In this document: piece by piece, positions 4,744-37,756 of the stretch
Position numbering within the stretch: the first letter of the stretch is position 1
Layout: each line of letters opens with the position of its first letter
Source: Bacteroidetes bacterium ADurb.Bin012
GTDB lineage: Bacteria; Bacteroidota; Bacteroidia; Bacteroidales; TTA-H9
Direction of reading: 5' to 3'
Assembly: GCA_002071415.1 (NCBI GenBank)
Contig: MWFC01000005.1
Coordinates: 1-64,000 of the forward strand
Length of the DNA stretch: 64,000 bases
Program-made: the position numbers and the translations under genes
The notes under the pieces: generated by a model
The model's database searches: none
What the model was told of the DNA's origin: nothing
The model's input: the letters and a program-made list of their open reading frames with translations, nothing else

Positions 4744-6308
4744 TGAAAGTATCGCATAGATTGAGTATATTTCGCATTGTCGTAGCCATATTGTCGTTTA
4801 CACTGATTACTTTGGCCTTTTTCGACTATGTAAGCAAATTGTCGTTTCACCATTTTCGTACGATTCTTTTTCTGCAATTCGTTCCATCACTTTTACAATT
4901 TATCCAATCACCTTCGATTATTACCGCGGGTTTTATTCTGGTCATTCTTCTTACTTTACTGTTCGGGAGAGTGTATTGTTCATGGATTTGTCCATTGGGA
5001 ATACTTCAGGATGGATTATGCAAGCTAAAGCCACACAAAAGGAAAAGAAGGAACAGGTATCAGTATTATCAAACGAATAAATGGCTAAAATACAGCATAC
5101 TTATTTTGACTTTCGTGTCTATTCTGTTAGGTTCTACAATTTTATTGCGATTTATCGATCCTTATTCTCTTTATGGGAAAATGACCTATCAATTGGGGAG
5201 TCCTGTGGTGGTGGGCGTCAACAATTTGGCTTTCGATATCCTTCAACAAATGGGTAATTATTCGCTTAAACCATTGCCTTATCCTTCTTTCAATCTATCG
5301 GCCTTTGTTTTTTCAATAGGATTTTTAGGAATATTAATTTTTTTGGTTTTTTGGAGGGGCAGAGTGTATTGTACGGAATGGTGTCCTGTTGGAACTTTGT
5401 TGGGTTTGGTTTCGAAATTTTCGATTTTCAAACTCCGCGTTTCTGAATCCGACTGCACCGCATGTGGACTTTGTGCCCGAAATTGCAAAGCCGGATGTAT
5501 TGATACAAAATTAAAAACGATCGATTTCGAAAGATGCGTGGCATGCTTCAACTGTTTACGCACTTGTTCTGCTCATGCCATTATTTTTACGCATCACCAA
5601 TCAAAAATCGGTGAATCTAATTTATATCATCCTGATATACAGCGTAGAAGGATTTTGGGTATGATGATTACCGCCACTGCAGGTTTAGGACTGAAATCTG
5701 CCATGGCTCAGGCAAATATCGGTACAAAGGCAATGCTGCCAAATCCTAAACCCTATCCTGTTACTCCACCGGGTTCTCTCTCTCTCGAACATTTCAACAA
5801 AACCTGTACGGCCTGTCATTTATGTATAAATGCTTGTCCAACACAAGTTTTACAGCCTGCTATGCTGCAATTTGGATTAATCGGGCTTTTCCAGCCCTAT
5901 CTCGATTTTCATAAAAATTTTTGTAATTACGATTGTGTTCGTTGTGGAGAGGTTTGCCCTACTGGAGCTATCAAAAGATTAAATTCAGATGACAAAAAAC
6001 TGGTTCAGATAGGGCAAGCTCATTTTTTCAGAGAGAACTGTGTGGTTTATACCGAGGAAACTGCCTGTGGAGCTTGTTCAGAACATTGTCCCACAAAGGC
6101 TGTTCACATGGTGTCTTATAAGGCAGGCCTTACGATTCCCGAAGTAAATCAGAATATCTGCGTTGGTTGTGGTGCATGCGAATATGCCTGTCCCGCTTTG
6201 CCCAATAAAGCCATATATGTGGCTGCCAACCCCATACATTTTCAAGCTTTAGCTCCAGAAAAAAGCACTAAAATTCAAGAAGAAATACCCGAAGAATTTC
6301 CATTTTAA
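4743..6308 (+). CDS. Membrane polyferredoxin, NapH-NapG-like fusion
   Basis: A 521-residue electron-transfer protein. Residues 1-210 hold about four membrane helices and the paired NapH-type motifs VYCSWICPLG (about 77) and VYCTEWCPVG (about 208). A two-cluster ferredoxin segment follows (CTACGLCARNC and CVACFNCLRTC, about 236-278). Near residue 301 there is RRRILGMMITATAGLGLKSA, which looks like an internal Tat signal. After it come four more Cys clusters (CTACHLCINACP, CNYDCVRCGEVCP, CGACSEHCP, CVGCGACEYACP) as in NapG/MauM ferredoxins. I infer a fusion in which cytoplasmic clusters pass electrons through the membrane part to periplasmic ones. Start and stop overlap the upstream DUF362 gene. 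The redox partners are unknown; no nap reductase genes are nearby. Confidence 0.85.
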   Translation: MKVSHRLSIFRIVVAILSFTLITLAFFDYVSKLSFHHFRTILFLQFVPSLLQFIQSPSIITAGFILVILLTLLFGRVYCSWICPLGILQDGLCKLKPHKRKRRNRYQYYQTNKWLKYSILILTFVSILLGSTILLRFIDPYSLYGKMTYQLGSPVVVGVNNLAFDILQQMGNYSLKPLPYPSFNLSAFVFSIGFLGILIFLVFWRGRVYCTEWCPVGTLLGLVSKFSIFKLRVSESDCTACGLCARNCKAGCIDTKLKTIDFERCVACFNCLRTCSAHAIIFTHHQSKIGESNLYHPDIQRRRILGMMITATAGLGLKSAMAQANIGTKAMLPNPKPYPVTPPGSLSLEHFNKTCTACHLCINACPTQVLQPAMLQFGLIGLFQPYLDFHKNFCNYDCVRCGEVCPTGAIKRLNSDDKKLVQIGQAHFFRENCVVYTEETACGACSEHCPTKAVHMVSYKAGLTIPEVNQNICVGCGACEYACPALPNKAIYVAANPIHFQALAPEKSTKIQEEIPEEFPF

Positions 6309-16053: not shown

Positions 16054-19000
16054 CTATCTTACAAGAATGAAGCTCCCTTTTAGGGTTTTGGTCACTCCTG
16101 GCGAATGTGTCCCATTGCCACGATATTCGATCAGATAAACGTAAACGTCGGCTGGAGCCATTTCTCCATCAATTTTACCATCCCAACCTTTTTCGATATC
16201 ATCTGTCTGAAATACCAATTGACCATGGCGATTATAGATATAAATGTGGAAATGAATCGTAGGATCGGTGGTAATTACCTTAAACATATCGTTCAAACCG
16301 TCATTATTTGGTGTAAAGGCGTCGGGCACATAAATAAAACCCTCACAGAGCTGTACTTTTATGGTGTCTACAACTGCACAGCCTTCATTGAATACACGTA
16401 CCCAATATGTTCCATTTCCATACACTTTTAAGGTGCGCTTAGTAGAACCGTCCTGCCATTCATAAAAATCACTCCCATCTCCTCCGCCTGCATCCAAAAT
16501 AATAGGATCGCATGAGAATAGATAGAGGTCTTCTCCCAGATTCAGATATGGCGCAGGTTTTACGGTAACATGAATAGTGAGTGTATCACGACAGCCTGAA
16601 TGATTCATCCCAATCAGAGAATAATCCATATCATGCTTCGGTGAAATCTTGACAAGAGAGCCATAAGTTGTATCAATGTCCTGGTTTGGCGTCCATTTGA
16701 ACGTCTCGGACCCCGAAGCACTCAAAATCAGTACAGAATCTCGGCAAAGGGCTGGTGAAGGCGGAGTCAGAACCAGTTCAGGTTTGGGATTGATGGTAAG
16801 TTTCAAACTGTCCTTTACCATTCCACATGGATAATTTCCAAAAACATTCACCTTCAGATAAACCACGGTTGGATTTATAATATCGTGATTTCCATATGAA
16901 TAAACTGGAGATTTCTGCGTTGGATGGTCAAGATTACCAATGCCATCCACTGTCCATTTTAAATGGTGGAAGTTTGATATAAGATCACCCATAACATGAT
17001 AGCGGCTTCCTTCGCAGATGGAATCGTTGGATATAATATTTACGATGGGTGCAGGTACTGTTCGTATATGTGTTTTAGTACCTTTACTTTCGCCGCATGC
17101 TGTTACAAATGTTGCCATCAAGTAGGAGGTACCAGTGGGAGGTGAAAGACTAAGAGTGTCTCCACTGTATAGAAATACTGGATTTTGTCCAGAGGCATCG
17201 GTGGAATACCATTTGACGGTATCGCCCCATCCACCAATCGTCCATAAATGAATATATCCAGGATAATTGGAACAAACCAGACTGTCTAAATCACTAACAA
17301 TCAGTTTGGGAGGTTGGGGGAGGTTTACGACGATATCGAAAGGAAACCATTTCGAAATGCCACAATAATTCTTCATACGAACCAGATAGCGCGTGGTAGT
17401 ATTAGGAGCTGCTACACGAAATGGATTTGTCGAACCTGCGGCTATGGTATCATTCCCATATATTTTTGCCCATAAAATTTGGTCACCTACTCCTCCCCAT
17501 GCCATTAACGAAACACTGTCCACAGTGCCAGGGCAGAAGTAATTCGTATCGGCAATTACGGAATCAGGTGGTCGAGGAGTATATACGATTAAATTGAAAG
17601 AATCACAAATAGAAACTCCACAGGCATTTTCCCAGCGAGCAAAAAACCAAGTTGAAGCCACAGGCGCAGGAATTGTGATATTTTTTCCCGTACCTATTGT
17701 AGCTCCTCCACAGGACTTGACAAACCAGCGCAATGTTTCACCCCAGGGCGAAAGAGTGTCGCCATAACCTCCAAAAGCCGTAAGTGTGATATAATCCACA
17801 TCCCCTATACAATAGTAGTTGGTATCGGAAAGAATTTGAGCAGGAGGGGAGGGAATTTCGACTACATTCACTGGAATGCTCACGCAAGGCGATTCTCCAC
17901 AGTAATTTTCCCATCGGGCATAAAAAAATGTAGTTGTATCGGGATATGAAATAGTGATCGAATCGCCATGGCCAATTGGCACACCACCACATGAATCGGC
18001 ATACCATGAAATGATTTCGCCATTGCCTCCGAATGATTTCAATGTTACCTGTCCGGTGTCTGAAACGCATTTGAATAAAGGATTTGCAGTAAGCAGTACA
18101 GGAGGTTCAGGAGTATTGACTATTACTTGAATCGAGCGGCATATCGATTCTCCGCATGAATTGTTGTTGTTGGCATAATAGGTTGTGCTAACGTCAGGTG
18201 CAGCAATGGTAAGTGAATTACCTGAACCAATGAAATTTTGGCCGCAACCTCCTTCATACCATCGAACCGTATCCCCGTATTCGTATATTCCATAAGCTGA
18301 TAGCTGGATGTTTTCATTATAAGAGATGCAGAAGTAGTTTGTATCTACAGATAATGAATCGAGAGGACGGGGTTGTGGTCTAACATTGATGATGATAGAA
18401 TCACATTCGGATTGCCCACAAAGATTAGTCCATCTCGAATAATATATCGTGGTGTCGCCTGGAGCGCTAATCAACAATGGAGAACCTGTTCCAATATAAA
18501 TTCCGCCGCAATTTCCTTTGAACCACTGAAGAGTGTCTCCAGAACCTCCACTTGCCGAAAGTTGTATTACTCCAACTTCTTCTGCACAAAAATCGTTTTC
18601 ATTTGTACTCAGGCTAAATGGCCGAACTGGCGGCTGCAACACTTCGACTTCAATCGAGAGGCAATTGCTCAGGTTGCATTTGTTCCCCCAGCGAGCATGA
18701 TAGATTGCAGAAGAATCGGGGGCTGAAATAGTCAAAGGAGTTCCATATCCTATCGGATTCCCTCCGCATTCATCCTTAAACCAATATAAGGTATCCCCAG
18801 CTCCTCCTGTAGCTGTAAGGTTGATCTGGTTTATGGTTCCAGTACAGAAAAAATTAGTATCTACTTGTAGGGCAGAAGGTGATAAAGGCTGAGGGGTTAC
18901 ATTTATCTGGAGACTATCACAGGTAGAGATTCCGCATTGATTTTCGTAAGTAGCCCAATATGTGGTGGTATCGTTGGGAGCCGTAATAATTAAAGGCTGA

Positions 19001-22000
19001 CCAATACCAACCAAGGTGCCTCCACACGAATCTTTCCACCATTTCAAAGTAGAACCTATGCCACCGCCAGCACTAAGAGTAATTATATTAACCGTACCAG
19101 CACAGTAATTATTAGTATCCACACCTAAAGAATCGGGGGGCAATGGAAAAGGAATGACATTGATTACAATGGAATCGCATTCTGAGTTTCCACAGGCATT
19201 CACCCACCGAGCATAATAAGTTGTGGTATCGGTTGGAGCCGTAACCGTCAAGAGCGAAGGCGGTTCGAACATTCCTGCAAGCACTCCACCACAGTTCTCT
19301 GTATAAACTTCCACAGTATCCCCGTTTCCTCCAATCACCCCAAGATTTATCTGAGTGACCCATCCTGTGCAAAAATTATTGAGTGTACTTGTCACAGCAA
19401 TGGGTTTTTCTGGGAAAGGAATCACCTTTGTGGTTTTGGTAGTATCATTGTAACATCCATTATTATCGGTAAATATATAATTGACTTGTTTGAATCCGGG
19501 ACCTGCCGCTAAAGGATCGAAAATGGCGGTTCCATTTCCTTGATCGAAGATTCCAGGGCCGGAAAAGCTGCCGTAGGGCAAATGATTTCCCGACAATAAC
19601 ACCGGGACATCATCGATGCAATAGGAAGCCGAAAATGGATTAAAGTCGACGGAAGGCTTGGGCAGCACGGTAATCTGGTAAGTTGTATCGCCAGTGCACC
19701 CATTGAAATCGGTATAAGAATATATAATATCGTAAGGGCCGCCAACGCCTGCAGCATCAGGATCAAAAATTGCCTTTCCAATATTCAGATCGATGATGCC
19801 AGGACCACTAAAAGAACCCAACGGATAAAAATTCCCTGTAATGGTATCGGGGGATGCATTTACGCAATATTGAGATAATATATTGGTAATAGAAGGTTGA
19901 GGAAGAGCATTCACGATCACTTCTTTGAACATGGTATCAGTACAGAAATTTCCGTCAGTAAAATAATAATATATGGAGTGTATACCCACGCCGGCCAGGG
20001 CTGGATTGAACATGGCAGTACCATTTCCATAATCGGTTATTCCAGGGCCTTCGAAGTGACCTTGAGGAGCTTGATTACCGGTAAGTGTTGCTGGGGTTGA
20101 GTTAAGGCAATAAGAGGTTACAAGTCCACTAAAACTAACCACAGGGAGAGCATTCACCGTAGTTTGTTTAGTCATGTGGTTTATACAACCATTCAATGCC
20201 TGATAAGTATAGGTAATATTGTAAGGACCACCTGCACCTGCTGTAGCGGCTGAGAAAATGGCAGTTCCATTCAGATTGTCGGTAATACCAGGCCCCAAGA
20301 ATGATCCGAAAGGAGCAAAATTACCAGTGAGTAAGGCAATGGGAGAATTCAGGCAATGATTGGGATCGAGGCCTGAAAAATCGACTGCGGGTGCTGGCAA
20401 AACTGTTGTTTTTTGTGAATAAGTATTTGTACAGCCATTGGGATCGGTAAAAGAATAGGTAATAGTATGCAAACCTGACCCGGCTATACTTGGATTGAAA
20501 GTGGCTGTACCATTAGGATTAGAGGTAATTCCAGGGCCCGAAAATGTACCTTGTGGAGCCATATTGCCAATTAATAATACGGGTTCGTCATTACTGCAAT
20601 AGGTAGCCAATAAGCCCGTAAAATTTACTTCAGGCAGGGAATAGACAGTTGTAGGCTGACTTACAGAATTGGTACATCCATTGGGATCGGTATAGGTATA
20701 GGTTATCACGTAGGGACCTCCTATTCCTGCAATACCAGGATCGAAAATTGCCTGCCCGAATCCGATATTAATAATGCCGGCTCCAGTGAAGAAGCCATCT
20801 GGTGCATAATTGCCGGTAAGTGTCGTTGGTCCTGCATTTAAACAATAGGCTGATTGTAGGCCGGTAAAACTTAATGTTGGAAGCGCCGTAACGGATGTAG
20901 TTTTGATTATACTATTAGAACAACCGTAAATATCAGTATAGGAATAAGTAATGGGATAAGGTCCTCCCGCACCTGCTATGGATGGATTGAAGGTGCCTAC
21001 TCCATTATTGCTCGCCATAATTCCAGGGCCGTTGAATACTCCATAAGGTGCCATATTTCCAACAAGCGTAGCAGGACTGGCATTTACACAATAAGAGGGA
21101 TCGAGCCCGGCGTAATTCACATAAGGCAAAGCCCTTACCGTTACGAACTGAATGTCATCATCAAAACAACCATTTATATCTGTATAAGAATAAGTAATAG
21201 TATAAGTACCTCCGGCACCGGCTGCAGCAGGATTGAAAATAGCCGTTCCATCTCCGTTGTCTGTAATGCCTGGCCCCCAAAATGTTCCATAAGGCATGTG
21301 ATTGCCCCAAAGTGTATCGGGTGCATCATTCTCACAATAAATATTCGATAAGCCCGTAAACGAAACCTCAGGTACAGGATAGACGGTAACATAAGTTCCG
21401 ATGCAGGCCGAAAATCCACAAGCAGTTTCCCAACGTGCATAATAAACCGTATTTACGTAAGGAGCCGGAATGGTTAAAGGGTTTCCCGTTCCTACAACTT
21501 GCTGACTTCCGCAATAATCTTTGAACCATATAACCTCCTCGCCTGAACCTCCTATCGCGATGAGAGTCAAGCTATTAATACTTCCATAGCAATAAGCAGA
21601 ATCGCTCAATAGGATACCAGTAGGAGCAACAGGTGGTTCGGAAACAAAAATGGTAATCGAATCGCACACCGATGGACCACATGAATTTTCCCACCAAACG
21701 TAATATGTAGTGGTAATGTTAGGCGCATCTAATATCACCGGATTGCCTTGATTGATTGGAGTTCCATGACAGGATAATCCCCATTTGAGAACGTCGCCCG
21801 AACCACCAAAAGCGGTCAGTCGAATATTACCCGGATAATTATAGCATAAATGATTCGTATCGGTGGTAACTGCTGTAACCGGCTTTGCAAGTGCTAAAAC
21901 CGTGACGCTACCTGAAAGGCAAATGGAAACCCCACAAGTAGTTTCCCAACGTCCGAAATAAGTAGTAGAAACCGAAGGAGCAGGAATAACTGCTGGGTTT

Positions 22001-25000
22001 CCGGTAGCTATAAGAGGTCCATTACATGAACCCTCATACCAACGGAATACCTCACCACTTCCGCCGGTGGCTGTAAGGATTACCGAACCTGCGCCTTCAC
22101 AAGCCGTAGAAGGAATAATTTGAATACTGTTGGGTGGTGTTGGTAAAGGAAGAACATTTACCACAATATTGGCACAAGTGGTGACACCGCAAGGATTTTC
22201 CCAGCGAGCGAAGTAAACTGTGGTGGTATCCGGCGAAGGAATGGTAATGGATGTTCCTGTTCCTATAGAATCACCTCCGCATTCACCTGTAAACCAAACG
22301 AGATTGTTGCCGCTTCCTCCTATTGCAGTAAGAGTAATGTTGCCAGGATCATCGGCACAAAAGCCTTGCCTGTTCACAATAGCTGAAACCGGGGCTTGTG
22401 GTAAAGTAAATTGGGATGAAACCACAAAAGAGGTGTCTTTGGTGCATCCCTTTGTATCACTAATAGAAAGTGAATAATCTCCTTCGGGTATCTCGTTGAT
22501 ATTTTGAGTTGTTGCACCATTCGACCATTGAAAGGTATAATCGGGTGTACCACCGGCAATGTATACCTCGATAGATCCATCATTACCACTTTCACAAGTA
22601 ACGGGAATTATGGTTGGTGCTCGATAAAAGGTTGACTCTTTCAATCCTGCAAATATCATATCGCTCTGGCCAGAACTGATGAGAGTTGTGCCCGCCAATA
22701 ATAGGCTGTTAGTAAAATTCCCGATAAAGATGGGATTATATTGCTTGTCAAGAGTCAAATCATAGGATACATCATCCCCAATATTGCCAGTGCTTTTTAC
22801 CATGCGAAAAACGCCAGCAGAGTCAAGGCGGCATATAAAAATGTCTGACCCTCCTGAACTAACCAGGTCGAAAGAATCCCATTGAGACGAACCGCTAAAT
22901 TTTCCTGTAATGTATATCTGTCCTGAGGGAGTATAAACAAGTCCATAGGCAATATCTTCTCCGCTTCCACCGGCACGTTTTGCAAAAATTGCGTTTCCCG
23001 AAGGATTTAGTTTTACCACAAAAACATCTTTGCTCCCGGCACATGTAAGATTTACTCCTCCAAATGTTGCCGTAGCTCCAAAATATCCAGAAATGAAAAT
23101 GTTGTTTTGTTCATCGGCATCCAGGCCAAAGGGTTGATCGTCGGCAATTCCGCCGGAGCTTTGCAATGAAAGCAGATTGCCATAGCGGTCGTAGCGAGCA
23201 ATGAAAATATCATTATCGCCGGCACTAGTCACCGAAGAATTACCAAATGTGGCATTACCTTGGAATATACCTGTTACAACCACTTCATCGGCTATGGTGT
23301 AAATCACGGCATGGCCTCTGTCGGGTGATAGACCCCCCCCCTGCTGGATCCAGTCCAATACTCCGGCACCGTTGTATCTTGCAATAAAAACATCTTCACC
23401 GCCACTACTTATAAGGTTGTGGCCCTGAAAATCGGCATTACCCTGAAAATATCCCGTAACGAAACAACTTCCGTCGGAAACGACATATAAAGCCAAAGCC
23501 TTGTCTTCAAAATTACCCCCTCCTGTTTGTACCCATTTTAAAATGCCCGTTGGACTATATTTTGCCAGGAAAGCATCACTTTCGCCTTGTGCAAAGTATT
23601 GGTTGCCTCCAAAAAGGGCCATCACGCGGAAAGAGCCCGAAAGGAAAATATTACCTATACTATCTAAACCTATACCTGTAACTTCGTCATCGAGGCTTCC
23701 ACCAATTTGCTGTATCCATTGTAAATTTCCCAGATGATTATATTTGGCTAAAAAAATATCCTTTCCGCCTGTGCTGGTAAGCGATGTGCTCCCAAAAACC
23801 GCATTTCCGCCAAAAGTTCCTGCCAGAAATATATTTCCCGCCTCATCGGCAACGATGCAGCGCCCCTCATCATGGGCTGCTCCACCTCCTTTACGGGGTA
23901 AAAACCATTGTGAAGTGTCTTTACCAAAAATTAAGGCCGGAGGTTGAGTTATAGTGAAACGTTTTATCAGTTTACAATTTTCCTCATCGCGAACTGTTAC
24001 CTGATAAGTATTTGGAAGCAATCCAGAGATATGGGAAGTATTATCTCCAGAATTCCAGGTAAATATTAATGGTTCTATGCCACCGGTTGTCGTAAGATGA
24101 ATAGACCCGTCGGCCTCTCCAAAGCACGAAACATTTTTTTTAGTAGCCGTAACACTCAAAGTACAATGATCATCCTGCCATTTCCACAAATCCCTGAAAT
24201 ACCCTGTGGCATTATCTCCTCCACACGAAATATAGGCAGCATCAGAATAAGCAAAAGATACGGAGTTCTCACGCGGTAATGCTGGAAAATCGCTTTTACG
24301 TGACCATAGATTGGCATTCACATCGTATTCCCATAAGTCATTCAATAGATTGGTGCCGTCATCTCCTAAAGCAATATATCCTTTTTGATTGAGAGCAAAC
24401 CCAACTGCTCCACTTCTTCCATGGCTTAAAGCGTTTATGGGAGACCATGTATTGGATACTCTGTCATAAACATAAAAATCCGAAAGATAAGAGCCATTAT
24501 AACCTAAGCCCACATAAGCCTTGGTTCCAATGCTAAAGGCAGATGCATAAATTCTGCCTTGTCCTCCAAAATTATTCCTTGCAGTCCAAGAATTACTTAC
24601 TGGATCGAATTCGTAAAAATCCTTCCTGTAAGCGCCATCGTATCCGAGCCCCACATAAGCCTTGTCGCCAATTACGGTAGAGATGCATCCCTGACGAGCC
24701 CCACCAGGAAAATTTATACCTGCCGACCATGTATGATTCGTTGTGTTATACACCCAAGTGTCCAATAAAAATCCGCCATTGTATCCTGTTGTGATGTAAA
24801 TTTTGTTTCCCAAGGCAAAACAAGCAGCATATGCTCTGGCCTGTCCTGGCATGTCGGTAAGCTGGATCCATGAATCTATAGCAGGATCGTATTCCCAAAA
24901 ATCTTTATGGTAAATTCCGTCGAACCCCATGCCAATATAAGACTTATCGCCAATGGTACAAGCAACAGCTCCTTTTCTGCCACTACCTGCAAAATCACTC

Positions 25001-25095
25001 TTTCTAATCCAAGTATCCTGGCCTAAGACCACGTTCTGAAGAAAAAGCATCAATAAGAAACAGAATGCAATGGTAATCTTGCTAAAACTATTCAT
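16054..25095 (-). CDS. Giant secreted multi-repeat protein with T9SS type B (CHU_C) sorting domain
   Basis: A 3013-residue predicted extracellular protein, likely exported by Sec then T9SS and involved in adhesion or surface structure. Order by eye: signal peptide 1-25; six Kelch blades about 27-305; a SprB-like repeat about 312-390; a second propeller of seven or so SBBP-like repeats about 395-820; a second SprB-like repeat about 825-893; four type A repeats about 896-1236; eight type B repeats about 1237-1895; nine more type A repeats about 1897-2677; three PKD/Ig-like units to about 2915; and a CHU_C/gliding-motility C-terminal domain (VPDAFTPNNDGLNDMF through GSFILVR). Type A (about 85 residues) has GGSGD...W...CGG...GTG...TTTYYARWEN.CG. 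Type B (about 80) has FTGL...YC.N...L.GN..P.G.F.GPGI...YTD.NGC. Each type A unit has about four Cys, each B unit two. Repeats are diverged. No promoter was found close upstream; a possible TAAATTTG lies about 400 nt away. Confidence 0.85.
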   Translation of the reverse strand: MNSFSKITIAFCFLLMLFLQNVVLGQDTWIRKSDFAGSGRKGAVACTIGDKSYIGMGFDGIYHKDFWEYDPAIDSWIQLTDMPGQARAYAACFALGNKIYITTGYNGGFLLDTWVYNTTNHTWSAGINFPGGARQGCISTVIGDKAYVGLGYDGAYRKDFYEFDPVSNSWTARNNFGGQGRIYASAFSIGTKAYVGLGYNGSYLSDFYVYDRVSNTWSPINALSHGRSGAVGFALNQKGYIALGDDGTNLLNDLWEYDVNANLWSRKSDFPALPRENSVSFAYSDAAYISCGGDNATGYFRDLWKWQDDHCTLSVTATKKNVSCFGEADGSIHLTTTGGIEPLIFTWNSGDNTSHISGLLPNTYQVTVRDEENCKLIKRFTITQPPALIFGKDTSQWFLPRKGGGAAHDEGRCIVADEAGNIFLAGTFGGNAVFGSTSLTSTGGKDIFLAKYNHLGNLQWIQQIGGSLDDEVTGIGLDSIGNIFLSGSFRVMALFGGNQYFAQGESDAFLAKYSPTGILKWVQTGGGNFEDKALALYVVSDGSCFVTGYFQGNADFQGHNLISSGGEDVFIARYNGAGVLDWIQQGGGLSPDRGHAVIYTIADEVVVTGIFQGNATFGNSSVTSAGDNDIFIARYDRYGNLLSLQSSGGIADDQPFGLDADEQNNIFISGYFGATATFGGVNLTCAGSKDVFVVKLNPSGNAIFAKRAGGSGEDIAYGLVYTPSGQIYITGKFSGSSQWDSFDLVSSGGSDIFICRLDSAGVFRMVKSTGNIGDDVSYDLTLDKQYNPIFIGNFTNSLLLAGTTLISSGQSDMIFAGLKESTFYRAPTIIPVTCESGNDGSIEVYIAGGTPDYTFQWSNGATTQNINEIPEGDYSLSISDTKGCTKDTSFVVSSQFTLPQAPVSAIVNRQGFCADDPGNITLTAIGGSGNNLVWFTGECGGDSIGTGTSITIPSPDTTTVYFARWENPCGVTTCANIVVNVLPLPTPPNSIQIIPSTACEGAGSVILTATGGSGEVFRWYEGSCNGPLIATGNPAVIPAPSVSTTYFGRWETTCGVSICLSGSVTVLALAKPVTAVTTDTNHLCYNYPGNIRLTAFGGSGDVLKWGLSCHGTPINQGNPVILDAPNITTTYYVWWENSCGPSVCDSITIFVSEPPVAPTGILLSDSAYCYGSINSLTLIAIGGSGEEVIWFKDYCGSQQVVGTGNPLTIPAPYVNTVYYARWETACGFSACIGTYVTVYPVPEVSFTGLSNIYCENDAPDTLWGNHMPYGTFWGPGITDNGDGTAIFNPAAAGAGGTYTITYSYTDINGCFDDDIQFVTVRALPYVNYAGLDPSYCVNASPATLVGNMAPYGVFNGPGIMASNNGVGTFNPSIAGAGGPYPITYSYTDIYGCSNSIIKTTSVTALPTLSFTGLQSAYCLNAGPTTLTGNYAPDGFFTGAGIINIGFGQAIFDPGIAGIGGPYVITYTYTDPNGCTNSVSQPTTVYSLPEVNFTGLLATYCSNDEPVLLIGNMAPQGTFSGPGITSNPNGTATFNPSIAGSGLHTITYSFTDPNGCTNTYSQKTTVLPAPAVDFSGLDPNHCLNSPIALLTGNFAPFGSFLGPGITDNLNGTAIFSAATAGAGGPYNITYTYQALNGCINHMTKQTTVNALPVVSFSGLVTSYCLNSTPATLTGNQAPQGHFEGPGITDYGNGTAMFNPALAGVGIHSIYYYFTDGNFCTDTMFKEVIVNALPQPSITNILSQYCVNASPDTITGNFYPLGSFSGPGIIDLNIGKAIFDPDAAGVGGPYDIIYSYTDFNGCTGDTTYQITVLPKPSVDFNPFSASYCIDDVPVLLSGNHLPYGSFSGPGIFDQGNGTAIFDPLAAGPGFKQVNYIFTDNNGCYNDTTKTTKVIPFPEKPIAVTSTLNNFCTGWVTQINLGVIGGNGDTVEVYTENCGGVLAGMFEPPSLLTVTAPTDTTTYYARWVNACGNSECDSIVINVIPFPLPPDSLGVDTNNYCAGTVNIITLSAGGGIGSTLKWWKDSCGGTLVGIGQPLIITAPNDTTTYWATYENQCGISTCDSLQINVTPQPLSPSALQVDTNFFCTGTINQINLTATGGAGDTLYWFKDECGGNPIGYGTPLTISAPDSSAIYHARWGNKCNLSNCLSIEVEVLQPPVRPFSLSTNENDFCAEEVGVIQLSASGGSGDTLQWFKGNCGGIYIGTGSPLLISAPGDTTIYYSRWTNLCGQSECDSIIINVRPQPRPLDSLSVDTNYFCISYNENIQLSAYGIYEYGDTVRWYEGGCGQNFIGSGNSLTIAAPDVSTTYYANNNNSCGESICRSIQVIVNTPEPPVLLTANPLFKCVSDTGQVTLKSFGGNGEIISWYADSCGGVPIGHGDSITISYPDTTTFFYARWENYCGESPCVSIPVNVVEIPSPPAQILSDTNYYCIGDVDYITLTAFGGYGDTLSPWGETLRWFVKSCGGATIGTGKNITIPAPVASTWFFARWENACGVSICDSFNLIVYTPRPPDSVIADTNYFCPGTVDSVSLMAWGGVGDQILWAKIYGNDTIAAGSTNPFRVAAPNTTTRYLVRMKNYCGISKWFPFDIVVNLPQPPKLIVSDLDSLVCSNYPGYIHLWTIGGWGDTVKWYSTDASGQNPVFLYSGDTLSLSPPTGTSYLMATFVTACGESKGTKTHIRTVPAPIVNIISNDSICEGSRYHVMGDLISNFHHLKWTVDGIGNLDHPTQKSPVYSYGNHDIINPTVVYLKVNVFGNYPCGMVKDSLKLTINPKPELVLTPPSPALCRDSVLILSASGSETFKWTPNQDIDTTYGSLVKISPKHDMDYSLIGMNHSGCRDTLTIHVTVKPAPYLNLGEDLYLFSCDPIILDAGGGDGSDFYEWQDGSTKRTLKVYGNGTYWVRVFNEGCAVVDTIKVQLCEGFIYVPDAFTPNNDGLNDMFKVITTDPTIHFHIYIYNRHGQLVFQTDDIEKGWDGKIDGEMAPADVYVYLIEYRGNGTHSPGVTKTLKGSFILVR

Positions 25096-25633: not shown

Positions 25634-26530
25634 TCATTGATTCAGGGGAAGGTAAAAATTACGGTATTCTTCAAATTGTGATGGGCGCATACCTGAGCCA
25701 TGAATGATAATTCTTTGTCTATCGAGCAATCCGTCAGGCCGGTAAAGACGTTCGACTTCAAGCATGATTTCTCCGTTTTCATTGGTAACTTGACGTGAAA
25801 GTTCTCTGTTGTTCTCATCATAATTCACATGATATCTCGAGCGGCCAAATCTGTTGGTTTCCCAATATTCTTCTATATAAGGGTTGGGATTGTAAATTCT
25901 TTCCCAAGTTTCGAACAGATTTCCGTTCTTGCCATATACCTTTCGGAGAATGAGGCGGCCTTCATCATCATAAACAGATTCGCTTAAAATGTATTGATCC
26001 TCTGTTTCATTTTCAAATTTTACTTCGCGTCCAAGATCATCGTAACTCCATTTCTTAGAACTGGTGAATTGCACTGAATCATCGTAAGTATTTTCCTCGA
26101 TCAGCTTATCATTATTATATCTTTTTTCGGTAATCTGTTCTCTTTCGCCGTCGTAATTGATAAATTCAACTTTATCAAGCAGATTGTTTGAATTGTAATG
26201 ATAAATTTCTCTGTCGAATGATTCATCTACATAAAAAATATCTTTTTCTATCAATCTCGACATAGAATCATATTGAAATGTTAGTTTTTGAGCAAATTCA
26301 CCACTGGAGTCAATTTCAGATTGTTCGATCAAATTTCCAGAGTCGTCATACTGAAAAGACATAGTAGCCTCCAAATTACCCTCGTTATCATAGCGTCTTT
26401 CCATTACTAATCGGTTGTTTTGGTCGTATTCTTGCTCAAGGTTCATGATGATGCCAACGATATCATCCTCAGTAAAATTTTCCGACTTAAAAATGATACG
26501 CTTCGTTTCCCTTCTGTAATTTCCTGTCAT
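25634..26530 (-). CDS. YD-repeat-like protein without signal peptide
   Basis: A 298-residue protein built almost entirely of about eleven short repeats of the form Y(D/N)xxGxLxE followed by 10-18 residues, for example YDNEGNLEA, YDDSGNLIEQ, YDDLGREVKF and YDDEGRLILRK. The pattern resembles the YD repeats of Rhs/teneurin shells but is looser and more acidic. No signal peptide, membrane segment, Rhs core motif or C-terminal toxin is visible, so it is predicted to be cytosolic. The first 25 residues are basic and non-repetitive. It lies upstream of, and in the same direction as, the giant secreted protein, with a 538-bp gap. I do not recognise a function. Confidence 0.6.
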   Translation of the reverse strand: MTGNYRRETKRIIFKSENFTEDDIVGIIMNLEQEYDQNNRLVMERRYDNEGNLEATMSFQYDDSGNLIEQSEIDSSGEFAQKLTFQYDSMSRLIEKDIFYVDESFDREIYHYNSNNLLDKVEFINYDGEREQITEKRYNNDKLIEENTYDDSVQFTSSKKWSYDDLGREVKFENETEDQYILSESVYDDEGRLILRKVYGKNGNLFETWERIYNPNPYIEEYWETNRFGRSRYHVNYDENNRELSRQVTNENGEIMLEVERLYRPDGLLDRQRIIIHGSGMRPSQFEEYRNFYLPLNQ

Positions 26531-30256: not shown

Positions 30257-30656
30257 ATGATGGCAGTCCATTCTATCGCCTTGGATTTCACCATCCAAGG
30301 AGGAAAGTCGGGACAACACAGAGTAGCCTGCTTCCTAACAGGAAGGTATCGCATAGAGCGATAACAGATAGTGCCACAGAAAAGAACCGTCGAAGGGTTG
30401 GTTCAGCCAACAATCGACAAGGGTGAAAACGTGAGGTAAGAGCTCACGCTGCAGGATGGCGACATCTTGTGGGGGTAAACCTCAGGCGTTGAAAGGCCAA
30501 ATAAACCAGGGATGCTCTATGGTTCATAGAGTGAGAGGGTTACTCGCCCAATCCTGGAGGGTAGGCCGATAGAGGTAACAGGTGACTGTTATCCCAGATA
30601 AATGATAGAAATCCTGAATTGAGGATACAGAATCCCGCTTATAGGGCTGCCATCTT
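30257..30656 (+). ncRNA. rnpB: RNase P RNA (bacterial type A)
   Basis: The catalytic RNA that matures tRNA 5' ends. The P1 helix is formed by GATGGCAG (30259-30266) and CTGCCATC (30647-30654). Conserved core blocks are present near the 5' side (GGAGGAAAGTCGGGAC, then CACAGAG), in the middle (GTGCCACAGAAAAGAACCG and GGGTGAAAACGTGAGGTAAG) and near the 3' end (GAATCCCGCTTATAGGGCTG). Length is about 400 nt, normal for type A. Exact ends are taken from P1 pairing. Confidence 0.95.
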
Positions 30657-30699
30657 TTCATTTGCCTTTATTGATTAGAAAACCTAACTAATTTGCAAT

Positions 30700-35269: not shown

Positions 35270-37756
35270 ATGAAAAAGATGTATAGATTCATCCAAAAAG
35301 CTGCAATTCTGGCCTTTATAGGCATATTACCCATAGCCTTATTAGGGCAGAAAGAGAATAAGAAAAGCAGTTATACTCCGTTGGAGGCTCCTCATTGGTA
35401 CGTAGGTGTTCAAGGTGGTATAAGCCAATTTTATGGTGATATAACAAAGTACAGGATATTACCAGACAAAGACAATTGGAACTTTGGATTTGGAGGATTG
35501 CTTGGCCGCCAATTTACACCATTCTTCGGGCTTAGAGGTACACTTGCCTATGGAAATTATAGTGGGCAGGAAGACCGTGCCAGTCATAGCTATTTACCCT
35601 CTTACGACCTAAAGGTTGAAGGGAGTTATATAGATTATTCTCTTCAAATGACATTTGATCTCGATCGCCTTATTTTTGGGTATAACCCTGATCGTAAGTT
35701 TGGAGTTTATGGGCTGGCAGGTATCGGAAATTCGCATTATAGGGTTAGACAGTACAGAATTTCAACGGGAGAATTAATTGGAAGTCGTGGAGTAAACACT
35801 GAAAGTGGTGGAGGCGATGGGAAAGGCATCGATAACCGTGATTTTATTGGAATGATACCTGCGGGTTTAGGAATTAATTATTCCGTTTCCGAAAGATTCG
35901 ATCTTACCCTCGAAAGTGTGCTTCGCTTTACCGACAGTGAAGGAATGGATATGATCTCGGGCGGAGCTAAAGAAATCAAAAACGATTTCTATAACACAAC
36001 TACTTTAGGCCTCGTATACAAATTTGGGCCAAGTACTAACCTGGATAAAATGCAAAAAGAATTCGGGAAAATTACTTTTGAAACCACCCCTGCAGTGCTC
36101 GAAACACATGGCGATTCTATTGATGTTACTATTCGGGGCACATTCCCCCCTAACTATTTCAACAAAAAAGCTGCCATATGTTTTCAGCCCGTATTGAAAT
36201 ATGCCACGGGTGAAACCGAATTGAAGTGCATGGTTTTGAGAGGAGAAAATGTTCAGGGTGATGCTCCCGTTATTTCTTACAAAAATGGTGGCACTTTTAC
36301 CTATAAAACAACTATTCCTTACTCTCCCGAAATGAATGTTTCGGAATTGGTCGTTAGCCCGGTAGCATTTATTGCTGAAGGTCCAGTTGGTAAAAGTACC
36401 AAATGTGAAGATTGTGCCAAGGCTAAGAAATCATTGGTACTGGGCGAGCGTAAATTGGCCGATGGCGTTATTCATACCTGCAAACGCATCGCTGCCACGC
36501 CTAAACAACTTATCGCTCCCCATGGTTACGTAAGAGATATTACGGTTACGCGTGAAGCTAAAATATACTATCCAAAGAATTTATATTCGGTAAACTTCAA
36601 CTTTGGATTGAATAAGGAAGAGGCTTCGAAAAAGGTATGGGCTAATTTATATGATCACATCAAAGCAGGTTACAAGGTCAAAGATATTACCATCAACGGA
36701 TGGGCATCACCCGAAGGTGAAGAAACCTTCAACGAAAACCTTTCGGGCAATCGTGCCCAGGCGGCTAAAAATGTACTGAATACCGATTTTGATAAGATGA
36801 GAAAAGATAAGAAAAATCCTGTTGCCGTACCTACCGACTTAAAAATTACTACGCAAGGGAATGGTCCGGATTGGGATGGATTCATGAAACTAGTTGAAGC
36901 CAGCGACCTGAAAGAAAAGGGAACAATCCTGAATATCGTTAATATGGCCGATCCAAAGAAAAAAGAACAGGAAATCCGCAATATGATCCTGATTTATCCT
37001 CAACTCGAAAAAGATCTTTTGCCTCCTTTGAGAAGAGCCGAAATCGTAATTACAGCATTCGAACCTTCGAAGACAGATGCCGAAATCCTGAGCTCGGCTA
37101 CTACTGAACCCGAAAAACTTACCGAAAAGGAACTTCTTTATGCTGCTACACTCACTCAAGACCTTAAAACCCAGCAAAAGATATATCGTTCGGCTACACA
37201 ATTGCATCCCAATAGCTGGATAGCCTTCAACAATGCTGGGGTAGTCGAAATTAAACTCGGTAACATCAATGAAGCCGGAGCAGACATTGAAAAGGCCAAT
37301 AGCTTAGCTCCTGATCAGGCTGAAGTTATCAACAATTTAGGGGCATTAGCCATGCTGAAGGGCGATAATGCAAAAGCCAAACAGATGTTCGAAAAAGCGA
37401 AAAAATTAGGAGCCAATGAAAACTATAACCTTGGTGTGTTGATGATTCCCGAAGGGAAATACAGTGAAGCCGTGGCTTCGATGAAAGGTGAAAAGTGCGA
37501 TTACAATCTTGCACTCGCCCTTATGCTTTCGGGAAATAATGGTGAAGCAGTGAAAGCTTTAGAATGTGCCGAAAAGAATGCTCAGGTTTATTATCTTACT
37601 GCTGTTTTAGGTGCTCGCACAGGTAATATTACCTTAATGCTCGATAATTTGGGAATGGCTATTAAGGCTGATGGTAAAATGAAACAAGAAGCCAAGAATG
37701 ATAGAGAATTCCTTAAGTTTGCCAATACTCCCGAATTCAAAAAATTAGTCGAATAG
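35270..37756 (+). CDS. Outer-membrane protein: beta-barrel, OmpA-like domain and TPRs
   Basis: An 828-residue cell-envelope protein. A signal peptide of about 25 residues ends near LLGQ. Residues about 45-260 form an outer-membrane beta-barrel (WYVGVQGGISQFYGD at its start; LTLESVLRF and TTLGLVYKFG near its end). A beta-rich middle domain follows (about 275-420). An OmpA-like peptidoglycan-binding region contains DITINGWASPEGEETFNENLSGNRAQA (split here as INGWASPEG and GNRAQA; about 475-505), with a long insertion. At least three TPR units lie at about 620-760 (AFNNAGVVEIKLGNINEA, NNLGALAMLKGDNAKA). It probably anchors the outer membrane to the cell wall. It is a single-gene unit with its own promoter and a strong hairpin behind. 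I do not assign it to a named T9SS component. Confidence 0.82.
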   Translation: MKKMYRFIQKAAILAFIGILPIALLGQKENKKSSYTPLEAPHWYVGVQGGISQFYGDITKYRILPDKDNWNFGFGGLLGRQFTPFFGLRGTLAYGNYSGQEDRASHSYLPSYDLKVEGSYIDYSLQMTFDLDRLIFGYNPDRKFGVYGLAGIGNSHYRVRQYRISTGELIGSRGVNTESGGGDGKGIDNRDFIGMIPAGLGINYSVSERFDLTLESVLRFTDSEGMDMISGGAKEIKNDFYNTTTLGLVYKFGPSTNLDKMQKEFGKITFETTPAVLETHGDSIDVTIRGTFPPNYFNKKAAICFQPVLKYATGETELKCMVLRGENVQGDAPVISYKNGGTFTYKTTIPYSPEMNVSELVVSPVAFIAEGPVGKSTKCEDCAKAKKSLVLGERKLADGVIHTCKRIAATPKQLIAPHGYVRDITVTREAKIYYPKNLYSVNFNFGLNKEEASKKVWANLYDHIKAGYKVKDITINGWASPEGEETFNENLSGNRAQAAKNVLNTDFDKMRKDKKNPVAVPTDLKITTQGNGPDWDGFMKLVEASDLKEKGTILNIVNMADPKKKEQEIRNMILIYPQLEKDLLPPLRRAEIVITAFEPSKTDAEILSSATTEPEKLTEKELLYAATLTQDLKTQQKIYRSATQLHPNSWIAFNNAGVVEIKLGNINEAGADIEKANSLAPDQAEVINNLGALAMLKGDNAKAKQMFEKAKKLGANENYNLGVLMIPEGKYSEAVASMKGEKCDYNLALALMLSGNNGEAVKALECAEKNAQVYYLTAVLGARTGNITLMLDNLGMAIKADGKMKQEAKNDREFLKFANTPEFKKLVE

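Follow-up and report, generated by a model that had tools for sequence, protein, structure and literature searches.

The closest solved structure to the protein described here is that of the Aureispira sp. CCB-QB1 grappling hook protein A, GhpA (PDB 9flp and others), a T9SS type B (CHU_C) substrate of 5,898 aa that consists of a string of Ig/PKD-like domains. Each GhpA monomer runs the length of the filament in a heptameric assembly, and a 180-nm filament with 49 domains gives about 3.7 nm per domain (PMC13319060). A second point of reference is SprB of Flavobacterium johnsoniae (6,497 aa, with sprF adjacent), which, along with other type B adhesins, has a signal peptide, SprB units and a type B CTD, and forms a long repetitive fibre. 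The CHU_C-associated Ig_7 (PF19081) giants of Bacteroidales use the same A and B bricks as the present protein, but in varying counts and orders, and no A4-B8-A9 array was found among them.

The window, a stretch of 64,000 nucleotides, carries on its minus strand an ORF of 3013 aa (25095..16054, with the N-terminus at 25095), which is best read as a giant surface-fibre gene of an uncultured Bacteroidales bacterium. The product shares the type B tail and the Ig/PKD-like domain string with GhpA, and the signal peptide, SprB units, type B CTD and long repetitive layout with SprB. However, it is much shorter than GhpA (3,013 aa), and it differs from SprB in its two propellers, its constant Ig_7/B array and its status as an orphan substrate. 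Since bricks and tail are common to GhpA but size and layout are not, it has not been filed as a grappling hook, although it does link ordinary type B adhesins to a system whose assembly is known. On balance, the protein is probably a T9SS-exported fibre of fixed length, anchored by a PorP/SprF-type protein and presenting a binding head.

Gene and Domain Architecture

From the N- to the C-terminus, the protein comprises a signal peptide, a 6-bladed Kelch propeller, a SprB unit, a 7-repeat SBBP propeller, a second SprB unit, the A4-B8-A9 array, units P1-P3 and a CHU_C domain. This order had been proposed in the initial annotation, and was borne out by Pfam, NCBIfam, unit HMMs and a model of the head; every named domain type was supported by Pfam and NCBIfam. 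The signal peptide (25021..25095, residues 1-25) was read from the sequence as a hydrophobic stretch followed by QDTW, a motif that starts the mature part in 9/9 orthologues, and by the same reading a Sec signal peptide is present in all orthologues. The Kelch head (24163..25020, residues 26-311) was recognized by Pfam, AF2 and Foldseek, with Kelch families matching residues 44-306 at E values down to 4e-26. Next come SprB unit 1 (23929..24162, residues 312-389; PF13573), which has two invariant cysteines, the SBBP propeller (22627..23928, residues 390-823; PF06739, 7e-9), in which seven repeats of about 61 aa were counted from the sequence, and SprB unit 2 (22417..22626, residues 824-893; Pfam and unit HMMs), the two SprB matches reaching 1e-15 in Pfam.

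The remainder of the protein would form the repetitive shaft and the anchor. Four Ig_7 (PF19081) units, A1-A4 (21379..22416, residues 894-1239), are followed by eight beta-sandwich units of 81-83 residues with two invariant cysteines each, B1-B8 (19414..21378, residues 1240-1894), and by nine Ig_7-type units, A5-A13 (17059..19413, residues 1895-2679). The A units were delimited by Pfam (Ig_7 at 1e-76 in 12 stretches), the cysteine map and unit HMMs; A12 has just two cysteines, in every species. Three PKD-like units, P1-P3 (16342..17058, residues 2680-2918), were defined by unit HMMs and precede the CHU_C/T9SS type B sorting domain (16057..16341, residues 2919-3013). The last was foreseen in the initial annotation and is well supported, PF13585 scoring 62 bits over residues 2922-2995 (cut-off 27) and the NCBIfam model TIGR04131 66.1 bits (cut-off 35). 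The repeat counts given at the outset also proved exact, as the cysteine map and the unit HMMs agree on A4-B8-A9 plus three PKD-like units, and the cysteines are almost invariant across orthologues. The 82-residue B unit lies above the cut-off of no Pfam model, yet it is widespread in Bacteroidales, and other families of the order also make frequent use of A and B bricks, arranged differently.

Conservation within the Family

Orthologues were sought with the N-terminal 898 residues in nine genomes, mostly MAGs, sampled from the GTDB family, and each of the nine yielded one, a single copy being truncated at the edge of its contig. The other eight are complete, with 2,980-2,992 mature residues counted from QDTW and about 40-85% identity (44-86% when the shaft is compared with that of the window protein). 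Every unit is present in all eight at near-constant length, with none gained or lost, and a tree amounting to 4.55 substitutions per site showed no change in unit number. An assembly artefact or chance can be ruled out, as the architecture recurs in eight independent assemblies and comparison with the nearest species gives a whole-length dN/dS of 0.09. In the Kelch head the value was 0.07 (two nearest species), and the head is therefore conserved rather than diversifying.

The units also keep their individual identity. Identity between the same unit in different species exceeds that between different units within one protein, and 8/13 A units and 4/8 B units are monophyletic by position across species, which rules out concerted evolution among units that cluster in this way; for A1, A5, A6, A8, A10, B2, B5, B6 and B8, clustering by position was not cleanly resolved.

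The search for full-length homologues that had been suggested with the initial annotation recovered the same domain order in the orthologues of the family; outside it, none of the proteins in 198 genomes of the order or 395 genomes of the phylum matched the array in full. A scan of the contigs of named genomes gave full-length homologues only in UBA5762 and E21_metabat.bin.19, and the other relatives inspected had a Kelch domain but neither the SBBP propeller nor the array. No literature was found on the source organisms.

A Paralogue with an Equal Shaft

A second giant protein, a paralogue of the first, was present in six of the nine genomes (G000, G001, G002, G003, G004 and G006) and seemingly missing from three, two of which are incomplete. 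In the five copies whose C-terminus was read, it carries the cassette SprB-SBBP-SprB-A4-B8-A9-P1-P2-P3-CHU_C in identical layout (2,694-2,731 aa). Where the window protein has its Kelch propeller, the paralogue has an Ig-like array of about 1,070-1,500 aa, of the Ig_3/I-set type in the one copy scanned, and this head varies in size, unlike the shaft. The SprB-SBBP-SprB segment occurs in the paralogue without Kelch, and so belongs to the shaft, with Kelch as an exchangeable head. This shows that shaft plus anchor form a cassette with exchangeable heads, one fixed shaft having two of them. Orthologues and paralogues divide into matching groups of species, and the tree built from the shaft fits a duplication that predates the family split; such an ancient event would have given rise to a second fibre of equal shaft length but with an Ig-domain head.

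The constancy of the repeat number across the family and the paralogue, like the minus-strand orientation, are points additional to the initial annotation. Surface adhesins usually gain some units in their repeat arrays and lose others, and the control giants examined here, from just two protein families, likewise change in repeat number or length. A type B protein with a SprB array has nine SprB units (ten in one case) in four species and seven in the other four (G002, G005, G006 and G008), while a third giant, compared in three relatives, measures 4090, 4313 and 5855 aa. That 21 units of two block types have kept their exact number and order family-wide, and through a duplication in which the heads were swapped, suggests that length or register, and not the tip alone, matters for function. 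The constancy could partly reflect divergence among the units (about 35-50% mutual identity) lowering recombination, and given this effect and the small sample, selection on length or register is something that we infer. With its constant array and swapped heads, the family offers a natural test of functional length or register in a T9SS fibre.

Two observations on the control proteins may be added. The SprB-array protein of genome G000 (L057, G000:C9:40767-46391) is 1875 aa long and has nine SprB units. The third CHU_C giant (L058, G000:C68; L085, G001:C97; L086, G003:C74) carries P1-type/PKD arrays and is apparently missing from some relatives; the C68 copy was considered as a GhpA homologue and rejected, its PDB matches being mainly to PKD domains of collagenases and of a surface-layer protein rather than to GhpA.

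Structure Models and Solved Relatives

Structure prediction, also called for initially, was run on the A4-B1-B2 segment and on the head. The AlphaFold2 model of A4-B1-B2 (pLDDT 95) is all-beta with three domains, and its first eight Foldseek ranks were all GhpA fragments (VIA Z 8.6-10.9 over 227-243 residues), the three-domain arrangement being similar at a VIA Z of 10-11. At the sequence level, a P1-CHU_C profile matched GhpA with an E value of 3.5e-116, both along residues 1151-4750 and at the GhpA CHU_C domain (5804-5884). These similarities, together with a register kept in orthologue and paralogue alike, could indicate a grappling-hook-like assembly in which several chains lie side by side along a filament, the constant unit number keeps neighbouring chains in register, and the paralogues might co-assemble. 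We regard this as rather unlikely. A resemblance between Ig-like beads is no proof of assembly, and size, head and layout differ from those of GhpA, in which no counterpart of the Kelch or SBBP head was seen and whose shaft matches mainly P-type units, whereas the shaft of the window protein is mainly A and B units. The A units match GhpA weakly by sequence (E 1e-4), and the A4-B1-B2 profile gave no match at E<=1. Unit-specific invariant residues number 0-5 per unit, leaving no clear lateral interface, and the seeming absence of the paralogue from three genomes means that co-assembly is not obligatory. A stronger version, in which the A4-B8-A9-P3-CHU_C shaft would be a register-locked, multi-chain filament combining Kelch- and Ig-headed paralogues as a modular grappling-hook relative, appears improbable. 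Outside the GhpA comparison, B1-B2 (20884-21384) showed a sequence match (E 1e-16) to All3314 (PDB 7b5h, 1476 aa), which is the same brick as the B units but found outside Bacteroidota-type adhesins.

The 868-residue AlphaFold2 model of the head (pLDDT 90) contains the Kelch and a CylK-like propeller, although with a pTM of 0.58 the relative placement of the head domains is not reliable. The Kelch propeller superimposed on the Kelch domains of KLHL/Keap1 proteins, which have the same 6-bladed fold, with an rmsd of 1.4-1.8 over about 245 residues (AF2 and Foldseek); these are eukaryotic adaptors, and the common fold does not tell the ligand. For the SBBP propeller, the nearest solved relative is CylK, an alkylating enzyme (profile E 1e-45). 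The two propellers thus belong to different families, one KLHL/Keap1-type and the other nearest to CylK, and this, with the Kelch-less paralogue, speaks against the earlier proposal that a propeller-SprB module had been duplicated. The picture of a fibre with an N-terminal head fared better, being supported by both the domain order and the head model, and the tip may bind a ligand, as had been supposed.

The relationship to CylK counts against the reading as a fixed fibre, and raises the alternative that one propeller is catalytic and the shaft merely holds a displayed enzyme out from the cell. As the CylK match covers the propeller only, such a role seems very improbable. Moreover, most propellers of the SBBP and Kelch types serve in binding. 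In the preferred reading, a fibre of fixed length, the shaft would consist of about 24 beta-sandwich units (A4-B8-A9-P3), in each of which cysteine pairs are conserved, and would extend for roughly 90 nm if the 3.7 nm per domain of the 180-nm filament applies (PMC13319060). It would carry SprB-SBBP-SprB and, outermost, the Kelch propeller, which would bind a putative conserved ligand, either glycan or protein.

Predicted Export and Anchoring, and Genome Context

Three features of T9SS type B substrates were found, namely a sorting domain over the cut-offs, a signal peptide by sequence, and a T9SS in the genome. The same genome encodes a SprA homologue (2677 bits), a PorP-K-L-M-N operon, read at contig C20, and a full-length GldJ (508 bits, cut-off 458). 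The Sec signal peptide would lead to export via a SprA-type T9SS translocon, and a PorP/SprF-like barrel whose gene lies elsewhere would hold the C-terminal type B domain at the outer membrane, making the protein an 'orphan' substrate. PorP-like barrels are thought to hold type B proteins (PMC9143113), and orphan type B substrates of F. johnsoniae use one common shuttle (PMC12618676). No porP/sprF gene adjoins the fibre gene, the PorP_SprF genes being on contigs C20, C4, C23 and C40 and none on C5, which counts against this anchoring, but an adjacent porP/sprF is common rather than universal among type B substrates and its absence is not decisive.

The type B CTD and SprB units, and a full-length GldJ encoded beside a PorP/SprF-like gene, would also fit a SprB-like gliding adhesin carried along the cell by a GldJ/GldK track. 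Besides the lack of an adjacent sprF, this is opposed by the tails of the PorP-like proteins. Gliding in F. johnsoniae requires the twin-cysteine tail of SprF (PMC12635249), but a Cys-X-Cys tail is missing from both strong PorP-like proteins (C4 and C20), one having no cysteine at its tail and the C4 protein a single one (...MPCPSF); the C23 and C40 homologues are weaker. The missing tail makes SprB-like movement less likely without excluding it, and type B proteins that stay static are known (PMC12618676). A gliding role is of low probability. The GldJ gene, which adjoins the second PorP/SprF-like gene, is at G000:C4:58978-61708 (L087).

Directly upstream of the giant gene is a YD/RHS-repeat gene (25634..26530, minus strand; 298 aa), whose product is without an evident signal peptide. 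A homologue adjoins the orthologue in G001, G004, G003, G002 and G008, with a weaker match in opposite orientation in G006, and the YD/RHS-repeat protein is a possible partner of the fibre. Elsewhere, the window encodes an 828-aa protein (35270-37756, plus strand) with an outer-membrane barrel-like N-terminus, a weak OmpA match and a TPR region, as well as a class A RNase P RNA (30260-30657, plus strand) and four tRNAs.
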